A stretch of 64,000 nucleotides of DNA, from positions 1 to 64,000 of the forward strand of contig SUXX01000007.1 of NCBI GenBank assembly GCA_015060735.1, read 5' to 3'. The notes below the pieces were generated by a model. That model was given only the letters and a program-made list of their open reading frames with translations, was not told the origin of the DNA and searched no databases. Every line of letters starts with the position of its first letter. Position 1 is the stretch's first letter. Origin of the DNA: Bacteroides sp. GTDB lineage: Bacteria > Bacteroidota > Bacteroidia > Bacteroidales > Bacteroidaceae. Of this stretch, positions 77-52,008 are shown piece after piece. A program made the translations under genes and the position numbers.

Positions 77-425
77 AAGTATTCTTTTTAAGATAAAATG
101 ATACATCTCTACAATATTCGTAAAAAAACTCGACTTCTGCAAGAAAAGAGCATACAAAAAACATTTATTCCCCAAAAGCTCTTTAAAGAATCAAGTTCAG
201 GAAACATTAGCCTCAACTAGGCAAAGAATTAATACAATTCTTCTTTACCATTAGCTTCTTCACAATTGTGAAGAAGAAACGTCACATAATGTGACGAAGT
301 TTCATCATATATTGTGAAGGAGAAACGTCACAGATGTGACGAAGCAATTAGATGCTAGACAAAGACGCAATATTATTTGAATTTATATCATATATATATT
401 ATATTTACACCAAATTATTAAGCCT
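77..425. other. Gene-free interval holding a palindrome-array repeat
   Basis: No credible ORF lies here. The right half (about 200-356) is a repeat with several tandem palindromes, listed separately. The rest is AT-rich sequence between two divergent genes and must hold both 5' regions. A weak -7-like TATATTTA sits near 402 in front of the DUF3883 gene; no clear promoter is seen for the leftward gene. Confidence 0.6.
200..356 (+). repeat. Palindrome-array repeat, copy A
   Basis: The copy begins GAAACATTAGCC and ends near GATGCT. It contains CTTCACAATTGTGAAG (258-273), CGTCACATAATGTGACG (280-296), a degenerate third unit, and CGTCACAGATGTGACG (326-341), separated by GAAGAAAC-type linkers. Copy B at about 28.8 kb has the same order of blocks in reverse orientation. 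The shared non-palindromic ends show that this is one dispersed element rather than chance hairpins. Confidence 0.7.
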
Positions 426-28153: not shown

Positions 28154-28237
28154 GCCCAGATGGCGGAATCGGTAGACGCGCTGGTCTCAAACACCAGTGG
28201 ATTCACTTCCATCCCGGTTCGACCCCGGGTCTGGGTA
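28154..28237 (+). tRNA. tRNA-Leu (CAA), copy 1
   Basis: 84-nt class II tRNA: acceptor GCCCAGA/TCTGGGT, anticodon stem CTGGT/ACCAG with loop CTCAAAC (anticodon CAA), a long variable arm and T loop GGTTCGACCCC. CCA not encoded. Identical to copy 2. Confidence 0.97.
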
Positions 28238-28278
28238 CGAAGAAAGAGAGTTTTAAAATTGCAATCATAATGTATGTT

Positions 28279-28362
28279 GCCCAGATGGCGGAATCGGTAG
28301 ACGCGCTGGTCTCAAACACCAGTGGATTCACTTCCATCCCGGTTCGACCCCGGGTCTGGGTA
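28279..28362 (+). tRNA. tRNA-Leu (CAA), copy 2
   Basis: Identical 84-nt sequence, 41 bp after copy 1, followed directly by a terminator, so both come from one short transcript. Confidence 0.97.
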
Positions 28363-28795: not shown

Positions 28796-28907
28796 AGCAT
28801 CCATTATCTTCGTCACAGCTGTGACGTTTCTTCGTCACAGTTGTGACGAAGAGAATCAAAAAGCAAGTTTATGCTAATTCTTCAAGAAGTCAAGGCTAAT
28901 GTTTCTC
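28796..28907 (-). repeat. Palindrome-array repeat, copy B
   Basis: Read on the minus strand: GAGAAACATTAGCC, then AAGAATTA, then the palindromes CTTCGTCACAACTGTGACGAAG (28830-28851) and CGTCACAGCTGTGACG (28811-28826) joined by AAGAAA, ending GATGCT. Block order matches copy A at 200-356, with two palindromes instead of three or four. Confidence 0.7.
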
Positions 28908-29168: not shown

Positions 29169-29253
29169 TACTCGAAGCGGGACTTGAACCCGCACAGCCG
29201 CAATGGCCAAGGGATTTTAAGTCCCTCGTGTCTACCGATTCCACCATTCGAGC
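29169..29253 (-). tRNA. tRNA-Leu (TAA)
   Basis: 85-nt class II tRNA: acceptor GCTCGAA/TTCGAGT, anticodon stem AGGGA/TCCCT with loop CTTAAAA (anticodon TAA), variable arm and T arm GCGGG TTCAAGT CCCGC. CCA not encoded. Confidence 0.97.
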
Positions 29254-29266
29254 ATCCTCAAAAGAG

Positions 29267-29339
29267 AGCGGAAAACGAGGCTCGAACTCGCGACCCTAAC
29301 CTTGGCAAGGTTATGCTCTACCAACTGAGCTATTTCCGC
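29267..29339 (-). tRNA. tRNA-Gly (GCC)
   Basis: 73-nt cloverleaf: acceptor GCGGAAA/TTTCCGC with discriminator T, D arm GCTC..GAGC, anticodon stem AACCT/AGGTT with loop TGCCA context (anticodon GCC), T arm GCGAG TTCGAGC CTCGT. 13 bp upstream of tRNA-Leu(TAA), likely one transcript. Confidence 0.96.
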
Positions 29340-49158: not shown

Positions 49159-50187
49159 ATGAAAAAGAGACCCTTCTTCCTGTCCCTATTCTTCCTTTGG
49201 CTGGCAAGCAGCTGTAGCGAGAAAACAGATTTCACACTAAAAGGAAAGATTGACAATTTATCGTCTGATACACTCTTGGTTTATTATGAAGTGCCTCAGT
49301 CCAAGCTTGACACACTCATCTGCCAAGGTGGAGAATTTACATATACTTTCTCCCCTGATACATTCACCATATTATCTCTTATTTTAGACAATCAGGAGCT
49401 CCTTCCTATCTATGCTGAAAAAGGGGAAACGGTCGAAATTAGCAAGACAGACAGTACACTGACCGTCAAAGGAAAAGGAGAAAACAAACTGTTGACTCAA
49501 ATAATGGATTTATTAAAGGGACTTTCTCCCGAGGACACAAAGATGAAAGTCGATTCTTTCATCCAAGCTAATCCTGAATCCTTTACCAACCTATACCTCA
49601 TAGATAAGTATTACACCCGAAATGATTCGGCCAATTACAATGATTTAGAACCGTTAACCCAAAAGCTACATGGAATCATCAAGGATACTCCTTATATGAT
49701 CCAACTACAAGCAAAAATTGAAGCCTTGAAAAATCCCAATAAAAACCAAAGCATCCTCTCTTTGCAAGCCATAGACAAAAACGGAGAAGACATCAAATGG
49801 AATAGTTTACGAGATAAATACATCCTTCTGAACTTTTGGGCAAGTTGGCATCCTCAAAGTGTTTCCGAACGGGATTCACTGAAGGCCCTGTTCAAAGAAA
49901 TTCCCAAAGACATCAAAAAAGAAGACTTCATTGTCTATAACATTTCACTCGACATGGACAAGAAAACATGGCTTCAAGCATGTGATGAAGAGACAGATTT
50001 GTGGAAACACATCTGTGACTTCAAAGGATGGAACAACTTTGTCTTAAGAAACCAGAACATCCATCAATTACCTTATAACATCCTACTTTCGCCTGCCAAG
50101 CGTATCCTTGAACGGAACATACCTCGGGATAAAATGGTAGATAAATTAAAACAACATATCAAACCTAAGAACAAGAAAAACCGTTAA
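49159..50187 (+). CDS. DUF4369 / thioredoxin-fold lipoprotein without CxxC, second example
   Basis: A 342-residue lipoprotein (lipobox WLASSC) with a DUF4369 domain (FTLKGKIDNLSSDTLLVYYEVP) and a C-terminal thioredoxin fold (LRDKYILLNFWASWHPQSVSERDSLKALF, FIVYNISLDMDKKTWLQACDEE, cis-Pro in LPYNILL). The active-site position reads WASWHPQS where redox-active members have WAsWCxxC, so both Cys are lost. The MKKRPFFLS start is chosen because it gives a normal lipoprotein signal; the track's upstream Met adds 24 non-signal residues that run into the previous terminator. 5 bp before the ComM-like gene. Confidence 0.85.
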   Translation: MKKRPFFLSLFFLWLASSCSEKTDFTLKGKIDNLSSDTLLVYYEVPQSKLDTLICQGGEFTYTFSPDTFTILSLILDNQELLPIYAEKGETVEISKTDSTLTVKGKGENKLLTQIMDLLKGLSPEDTKMKVDSFIQANPESFTNLYLIDKYYTRNDSANYNDLEPLTQKLHGIIKDTPYMIQLQAKIEALKNPNKNQSILSLQAIDKNGEDIKWNSLRDKYILLNFWASWHPQSVSERDSLKALFKEIPKDIKKEDFIVYNISLDMDKKTWLQACDEETDLWKHICDFKGWNNFVLRNQNIHQLPYNILLSPAKRILERNIPRDKMVDKLKQHIKPKNKKNR

Positions 50188-50192
50188 CAAGT

Positions 50193-51731
50193 ATGTTAGT
50201 AAAAGTATACGCCGCAGCAGTACAGGGAATTGATGCAACGATTGTAACCATCGAAGTCAATAGTTCACGAGGAATCAAGTTCTTTCTGGTGGGGCTACCC
50301 GATTCGGCCGTTAAGGAAAGCCACGAACGAATCATGTCTGCTTTGCAAGTTAACGGATACAAATTCCCTACCCGACAAATTATCGTCAATATGGCTCCGG
50401 CTGATATACGGAAAGAAGGGTCGGCATACGATTTACCACTTGCCATCGGCATCCTTGCCTCAGCCGGTGAAGTTTCTGAGGAAAAATTATCCAAGTATCT
50501 TATTATGGGTGAGTTAAGCTTGGACGGAAGTCTACAACCCATCAAGGGTGCACTTCCTATTTCCATCAGTGCACGTTCACAAGGTTTCGAAGGACTTATT
50601 CTGCCCAAACAGAATGCACGCGAAGCTGCCGTGGTCAACAACCTCAATGTTTACGGTGTAGAAAACATCAAAGAAGTCATCGAGTTCTTTAACAACGAAC
50701 GTGAGTTACAACCCACTATCGTAAACACTCGCGAAGAATTCTATCAACATCAGGATACCTTTCCATATGATTTTGCAGACGTGAAAGGCCAGGAGAATGT
50801 GAAACGAGCCTTGGAAGTAGCGGCTGCCGGCGGACACAACCTCATCATGATTGGTGCCCCCGGTAGTGGAAAGTCCATGATGGCCAAACGCTTACCCGGT
50901 ATCCTTCCTCCCTTGTCATTGGGCGAAAGCCTGGAAACCACCAAAATCCATTCCGTGGCAGGGAAATTAAGCAAAAACGATTCATTGATTGCCATTCGAC
51001 CTTTCCGAAGCCCTCACCACACCATCTCACAAGTAGCCATGGTAGGTGGAGGTTCCAATCCGCAACCCGGCGAAATCAGTTTGGCACACAATGGTTTACT
51101 TTTCCTTGACGAATTGCCCGAATTCAGTCGAAGCGTACTCGAGGTGCTTCGCCAACCTCTTGAAGACCGCCATATTTCTATTTCACGTGCCAAATATAGT
51201 CTGGATTATCCGGCCAGCTTCATGCTTGTCGCTTCCATGAATCCTTGCCCATGCGGATATTACAACCACCCCACGAAGGCGTGTGTCTGCAACCCCGGCC
51301 AAGTTCAAAGATACTTGAACCGTATCTCAGGACCTTTATTGGATCGTATAGACATACAAATTGAGATTGTCCCTGTCCCTTTCGAAAAAATGTCGGAGCA
51401 AACCAAAGGCGAAAGCAGTTCGGTCATCCGTGAACGAGTTGTCAAAGCCCGTAAGATTCAAGAAGAACGCTTTGCCAACCATCCCGGTATCTATTGCAAT
51501 GCCCAAATGGAAAGTCAGTTGCTCCATCAATATGCCCAACCGGATGAGAAAGGCTTGGCTCTGCTACGGACAGCCATGACCCGTTTAAACCTTTCAGCCC
51601 GAGCCTACGATCGCATCCTAAAAGTCTCACGCACCATTGCTGACTTGGAAGGAAGCCCTACCATTCTGCCTCATCATCTGGCCGAAGCCATCAGCTACCG
51701 CAATCTAGATAGAGAGAATTGGGGAGGATAA
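50193..51731 (+). CDS. YifB/ComM-family Mg-chelatase-like AAA+ ATPase
   Basis: A 512-residue protein with an N-terminal Lon-protease-like S5 fold domain (1-170, KVYAAAVQGIDATIVTIEVNSSRGIKFFLVGLPDSAVKESHERI), an AAA+ module (GAPGSGKSMMAKRLPGILPPL Walker A; LLFLDELPEF Walker B), a zinc-knuckle-like NPCPCGYYNHPTKACVC, and a C-terminal lid. ComM is a hexameric helicase aiding branch migration during natural transformation in gamma-proteobacteria. The gene is widespread in Bacteroidetes, where the role is untested. A ComF-family gene also occurs in this window. Confidence 0.93.
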   Translation: MLVKVYAAAVQGIDATIVTIEVNSSRGIKFFLVGLPDSAVKESHERIMSALQVNGYKFPTRQIIVNMAPADIRKEGSAYDLPLAIGILASAGEVSEEKLSKYLIMGELSLDGSLQPIKGALPISISARSQGFEGLILPKQNAREAAVVNNLNVYGVENIKEVIEFFNNERELQPTIVNTREEFYQHQDTFPYDFADVKGQENVKRALEVAAAGGHNLIMIGAPGSGKSMMAKRLPGILPPLSLGESLETTKIHSVAGKLSKNDSLIAIRPFRSPHHTISQVAMVGGGSNPQPGEISLAHNGLLFLDELPEFSRSVLEVLRQPLEDRHISISRAKYSLDYPASFMLVASMNPCPCGYYNHPTKACVCNPGQVQRYLNRISGPLLDRIDIQIEIVPVPFEKMSEQTKGESSSVIRERVVKARKIQEERFANHPGIYCNAQMESQLLHQYAQPDEKGLALLRTAMTRLNLSARAYDRILKVSRTIADLEGSPTILPHHLAEAISYRNLDRENWGG

Positions 51732-51770
51732 TTCGATTCACTTCTACCCGAATGGGTTAAAGCAAATTAA

Positions 51771-51848
51771 CTTCACTTTTACACCATCAGCACTCACCCC
51801 TGAAATTCAGGCAGTTTGAGTGCCGTTCCTCGCTTCTTGGAAGTGAAG
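51771..51848. repeat. Nested inverted repeat after the ComM-like gene
   Basis: Three concentric arm pairs share one centre: CTTCACTT (51771) / AAGTGAAG (51848), CACTCA (51791) / TGAGTG (51822), and the inner palindrome CCTGAAATTCAGG (51799-51811). The 78-nt unit could fold as one long irregular hairpin on either strand. Confidence 0.55.
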
Positions 51849-51924
51849 ATGCGGAATACCACTTGTCCTGCTTAAAAACACCCAATTTACTCATCAATTC
51901 TTTGTTTTAATAAAGAGAAAAACT

Positions 51925-52008
51925 TAATCATAACTTATGATTATAGAATTACAACTTATAATTGTAGAATCATAAGTTATGATTAGCTGTTCAAAACTTA
52001 TGATTAGC
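51925..52008. repeat. ACTTATGATT palindrome cluster
   Basis: TAATCATAACTTATGATT (51925) and AATCATAAGTTATGATTA (to 51985) are perfect 18-nt arms of a 61-nt palindrome; each arm is itself nearly palindromic, the centre (ATTACAACTTATAATTGTA) is too, and a fourth half-unit AAAACTTATGATTAGC follows. Confidence 0.65.

Follow-up and report, generated by a model that had tools for sequence, protein, structure and literature searches.

Dispersed palindromic sites serve several nucleoid proteins, as in Noc and NBS, SlmA and SBS, and MatP and matS. The HU-HIG proteins were reportedly defined in 2017 by Burroughs and colleagues, and no description of a DNA site for them, or of a pairing between HU-HIG and an array, was found in the literature searched. 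Among intergenic repeats, the palindromes of the REP/RAYT system carry a GTAG or CGTC tetranucleotide tag at one end (PMC3733652), while PINSR of Prevotella intermedia is present in 177-184 copies (PMC4755523). The palindrome array described here is a REP-like analogue and not a member of REP/RAYT. A fixed GTAG/CGTC tag is absent from 52 aligned copies, and no Y1 (HUH) RAYT transposase is found among the 25 commonest of the 134 Pfam families in 92 array neighbours, so the link to a REP-type tyrosine transposase raised in an earlier note on this DNA was not recovered there. Since tag and RAYT gene were both tested and neither was found, the array is not filed with that system.

The window, a stretch of 64,000 nucleotides, belongs to a genome (G000) of 96 contigs that is 81% complete. 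As the earlier note proposed, it holds two copies of the array in opposite orientation, A and B (Table 1), with shared ends: GAAACATTAGCC on one side and a GATGCT-like sequence on the other. BLAST of copy A against its own genome, the check that note asked for, recovers B (75% identity, E 2.9e-11) and reveals a third copy, C (C96:2328-2482), which is 80% identical to A along its full length (E 5.5e-34). With E-values this low the likeness between A and B is not due to chance, and it exceeds the palindromes. The pattern GTCACA-N1-6-TGTGACGAA has seven matches genome-wide, all within copies A, B and C, and its reversed control has none in the same genome. The perfect palindrome 20-mer occurs in only five contigs among 84,980 species genomes, from which the window's own genome is perhaps excluded. 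In copy A, four imperfect palindromes stand in tandem with a period of 22-23 bp, and the ATTAGC-like boxes of the left arm extend the 22-bp register leftward; such boxes are in equal register in copy B and in the copies of genome G034. Two covariance models, R1 (built on 10 copies) and R2 (built on 52), match copy A at 227-372 with 131.7 and 103.1 bits, respectively. Copy B is apparently a two-unit deletion product in which P2-P3 have been lost. Copy A is separated from a peptidase S37 gene (1361-2656) by a NOV_C (PF13020) gene on the plus strand (426-1193), which weakly resembles defence-protein models (PADLOC TmtA), and elsewhere (G070:C101) an array is found only about 72 bp from a peptidase S37 gene like the window's. 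Copy B is flanked by four tRNA genes (28154-28362 and 29169-29339).

Table 1. Coordinates of the array features in the window.
Feature	Position	Strand	Basis
Copy A, four-palindrome array and left arm	200..356	+	Sequence; own-genome BLAST; models R1/R2
Left-arm boxes ATTAGC (206-211), ATTAAT (228-233), ATTAGC (250-255), exact 22-bp spacing	206..255	+	Sequence reading
Palindrome unit P1, CTTCTTCACAATTGTGAAGAAG	255..276		Sequence
Palindrome unit P2, AAACGTCACATAATGTGACGAAG	277..299		Sequence
Palindrome unit P3, TTTCATCATATATTGTGAAGGAG, degenerate	300..322		Sequence
Palindrome unit P4, AAACGTCACAGATGTGACGAAG	323..344		Sequence
Right flank of A, aligning with the promoter side of copy C before the HU-HIG gene	345..395	+	A/B/C alignment
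Copy B, two-unit array	28796..28907	-	Sequence; BLAST; R1 62.3 bits, R2 49.4 bits
Copy B palindrome unit, CTTCGTCACAGCTGTGACGTTT	28808..28829		Sequence and pattern search
Copy B palindrome unit, CTTCGTCACAGTTGTGACGAAG	28830..28851		Sequence and pattern search
Copy B ATTAGC boxes (28873-28878 and 28895-28900), 22-bp spacing	28873..28900	-	Sequence reading

The idea of a dispersed non-coding element with shared flanks is borne out, and the family reaches far beyond two copies. R1 finds arrays in 26 of the 61 genomes of the genus, which we take to be Phocaeicola. The loci found by R2 number 9 in G000, about 22 in G011 (taken here as P. vulgatus ATCC 8482), 26 in G063 (presumably P. dorei-like), 26 in G090 and 16 in G244, the last two genomes being from other families of the order Bacteroidales; E-values of both models are rough, and as both strands are reported, loci are counted as half of the matches. 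A Paludibacteraceae MAG contains a copy of the window's own subfamily (L040, JAGCLD010000019.1), which either crosses family borders or comes from a mixed bin. Plain BLAST finds few relatives, with plasmid matches at chance level only and no phage matches, and exact-match searches overlook the family, since the letters vary under a stable format. Scoring palindrome arrays in general picks out the strong ones and is weak on degenerate ones. The constant format is that of four palindromes with a CAC-N4/5-GTG core and a period of 22-23 bp, set in intergenic spacers: 100 of 111 arrays overlap no ORF of at least 80 aa, and the ORFs that the remaining 11 overlap are all short, at 81-213 aa. Unit number had been thought variable and expanding, but four is the norm in nearly all copies, with more in a few (G025, G080) and two in B. 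At two loci (L125 in G025:C48 and L144 in G080:C6), five or more near-identical units give a minisatellite-like appearance.

In the 52 aligned copies, the CAC and GTG at each palindrome centre are almost invariant, whereas the arm letters vary between subfamilies yet remain palindromic. The arms change on both sides in 350 cells versus 165 in shuffles, and arm covariation is 0.382 versus 0.192 in shuffles and 0.09-0.15 in slid structures; because the shuffles leave relatedness in place, this counts as support and carries no probability. Among the first 10 copies hairpin covariation is not above shuffles, and it becomes visible only when subfamilies are compared. An invariant core with arms changing in step strengthens the likeness to dyad operators that had been remarked on earlier. 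The units can also be folded as hairpins, and many lie between convergent genes, as RNA hairpins or terminators might. Such an origin is highly improbable, since a T-run is absent, invariance lies in the inner CAC/GTG stem rather than the loop, the central four bases are often palindromic themselves, and no Rfam family reaches its gathering score on the arrays, with weak sub-threshold matches only.

The gene behind the array points to a candidate binding partner. Copy C lies 75 bp before a gene (C96:1690-2307) for a 205-aa protein with an HU-HIG domain and a winged helix, which is the candidate cognate protein for A and B. Among the array neighbours, 13 encode an HU-HIG domain (PF18291, E 1e-22 to 1e-37) joined to a winged-helix-like region, in proteins of 201-226 aa (one cut by a contig end), and in this search from the array side the array is upstream of the gene in 13/13. 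In a folded model (pLDDT 86) the HU domain comes first and the winged-helix region after it contains three helices, and the best fold match is structure 4fmr BVU_2165; PADLOC gives no convincing match for the protein. Searching from the gene side, an array is present within about 270 bp upstream of 27 of the 30 strong HU-HIG-wHTH genes (about 190 bits or more, upstream sequence present), 25 by R2 at E<=0.05 and two degenerate ones by eye (G070:C70, G090:C151), and some of these HU-linked arrays belonged to R2's own building set. No array is found upstream of the other three (G031:C139, G064:C14, G244:C2). Several distant paralogues (97-145 bits) carry four palindromes of another kind, which lack the CAC core (CTCCATA...GGAG in G011:5078, for example); four of these score above all 60 shuffles (G012:C64, G090:C92, G011:5078, G023:C33), and the array scores of the other distant paralogues are not significant against the same 60. 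Bacteroides-type promoter boxes (TAnnTTTG) occur just before or after the array in 33 of 46 upstream regions, against 5.6 expected, and their place beside the array suits an autoregulatory operator.

The array is probably a binding site for four HU-HIG-wHTH dimers and a likely self-operator, with A and B as dispersed solo copies. One HU-HIG protein dimer would bind each palindrome, and four dimers, two helical turns apart on one face of the DNA, would form a compact nucleoprotein block. Before an HU-HIG gene this block would control the protein's own promoter and so provide autoregulation; in dispersed copies, A and B among them, it would shape local nucleoid structure or be a tolerated remnant. 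Against this reading stand the three strong genes that lack an array and the several distant ones with non-significant scores, and also some array types that have no matching HU-HIG gene in their assembly (G034 and G010, both incomplete MAGs).

Motif and protein vary together. The gene-linked half-sites differ by protein group, examples being GCTTCGT-CAC (G000:C96), TTC-CAC-AT (C91), ATCGTnT-CAC-T (C74), TTAAT-CAC (G011:2976) and ACCTCGA-CAC-GT (G068). Motif similarity follows protein identity, with a Mantel r of 0.48 for the HU domain and 0.37 for the winged helix (p 0.0002), and most proteins with CAC-core arrays have the recognition helix TAxR, while the distant group has a different helix. 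Solo arrays, defined as those that do not adjoin an HU-HIG gene, have their closest gene-linked motif in their own genome in 49 of 87 cases, as against 7.1 expected and a maximum of 16 in 5000 shuffles, and the motif of A and B is closest to that of copy C. This tracking is a correlation in which descent and specificity are confounded, and within-genome motif sharing could come from common descent instead of a trans-acting protein.

The partner could also be VapE. Besides HU-HIG, the one clearly recurrent family in the Pfam scan of the 92 neighbours is the helicase-like VapE/DUF3874, and the rest belong to diverse, unrelated families. Each of the 14 VapE neighbours is preceded by an array, in most cases at a distance of 150-168 bp, and at 13 HU-HIG loci VapE is divergent from the HU-HIG gene across the array. 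The sequence of the VapE neighbour matches a VapE-type structure (7pds, E 1.4e-6) and phage helicase/primase families. These data would fit an origin-like iteron array of the VapE helicase, within a replicon- or phage-satellite-like module of VapE, HU-HIG and iterons whose remnants are the solo arrays. We consider this quite unlikely, because many HU-HIG loci lack VapE within the sequence examined, no integrase or other satellite gene recurs consistently among the families listed for the 92 neighbours, and solo arrays are stable over species-level time. At one locus of the window's genome, a tyrosine recombinase gene lies about 100 bp from a TTCCACA-subfamily array (L086 2722-3888, G000:C22).

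The spacers in which solo arrays lie bear on two further explanations. Convergent spacers hold 34 of 89 solo arrays. The share among control spacers is 10 of 60 within those loci (p 0.006) and 18 of 79 over 400 kb sampled from G011 (p 0.04); in divergent spacers the 89 solo arrays show no enrichment over control spacers. If the arrays were the operators of adjoining genes in an ordinary transcription-factor regulon, as the promoter boxes beside the array at the HU-HIG gene and its invariable place upstream of VapE might suggest, promoters rather than convergent spacers should be favoured, and neighbours other than HU-HIG and VapE would not be so unrelated. An ordinary operator set is thus unlikely. 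The preference for convergent spacers counts in favour of a REP/MITE-like selfish or passively copied element. Solo arrays would then have spread from the HU-HIG/VapE locus, through the proteins encoded there or another recombinase, and would be copies or scars without a host function. We regard this as a serious alternative, with somewhat less than an even chance. Within a genome the homology of copies extends past the palindromes (A and C; those of G034, about 75-87% identical over about 200 bp), which means that copying happened at some time; subfamilies and copy numbers are lineage-specific, and copy B is degenerate. On the other side, format and palindromy are preserved in diverged copies, and most G011 arrays have a same-place counterpart in G063 with flanks 90-97% identical, which gives no hint of high mobility at present. 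As to the marks of a MITE, terminal inverted repeats matching a transposase and target-site duplication, some subfamilies have inverted ATTAGC boxes, and the non-shared G011/G063 loci followed up showed neither a target duplication nor a clean empty site, two of them reflecting other events than clean insertion. In G011 an IS66-family element (TnpC of 537 aa, TnpB) sits inside an array with about 63 bp lost (L292 1622-3988, G011 49621-51988), and an end of the same element also abuts array G011_1595. In G063, 17 kb lie at an array edge, beside sequence resembling a tRNA end. These two loci are too few to make the arrays insertion hot spots.

The arrays may also be unevenly placed along the chromosome, which a selfish element would not readily explain. 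GC skew in G011 switches sign at about 1.5 Mb and 4.2 Mb. Among the matches listed, 15 of 20 arrays are in the origin half (half-chromosome test, p 0.04), and the largest array-free stretch, 2.03 Mb, spans the terminus (p 0.0025 on 19 arrays); one weak further match falls inside it. The distribution in G063, among the matches listed, is similar but not independent of that in G011. A concentration in the origin half is thus suggestive, for one species pair and among the matches listed. Solo arrays may be nucleoid sites, selfish copies or origin-like sites. A wider and tentative proposal, which we think has the lesser chance of being right, is that Bacteroidales possess a chromosome-marking system that diversifies fast and is specific to each paralogue. 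In it, every HU-HIG-wHTH protein, frequently accompanied by a VapE helicase, would read its own four-dimer array and bridge or mark 10-25 copies, most of them in the origin half, and site and recognition helix would co-evolve.

Compared with what is generally known of Noc, SlmA and MatP sites, the arrays are alike in being tens of palindromic sites, possibly biased on the origin-terminus axis; they differ in their four-unit format, in forming several paralogous site families per genome, and in lying upstream of the protein gene. REP/REPIN with RAYT likewise combines short palindromes dispersed in spacers, a lineage-specific motif and a linked protein gene that shares the motif, but here HU-HIG and a winged helix (often with VapE) stand in place of the Y1 transposase, and the array is fixed at four helically phased units. 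BrickBuilt, a MITE of Porphyromonas gingivalis, is also an intergenic Bacteroidales element with 23-nt units between a leader and a tail; its direct repeats vary widely in number, its terminal inverted repeats are of IS5 type, and it is not reported with HU-HIG (PMC4596501). The arrays do not belong to it, since their ends differ from its terminal repeat GAGACCTTYGCA and their unit format from its variable number of 23-nt direct repeats. PINSR, a 188-bp intergenic repeat with neither terminal inverted repeats nor coding content, is likened by description only (PMC4755523). There is also a tie to the HU-HIG proteins themselves (PF18291; 4fmr BVU_2165), the family of the linked gene, for which the arrays would supply the DNA site. 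These proteins are abundant in gut Bacteroidales, and the arrays offer a concrete predicted site for each paralogue, some 20 positions mapped in P. vulgatus, and a naturally occurring series for specificity (half-site against recognition helix). With such predicted sites, the roles in binding, autoregulation and chromosome organisation become directly testable.
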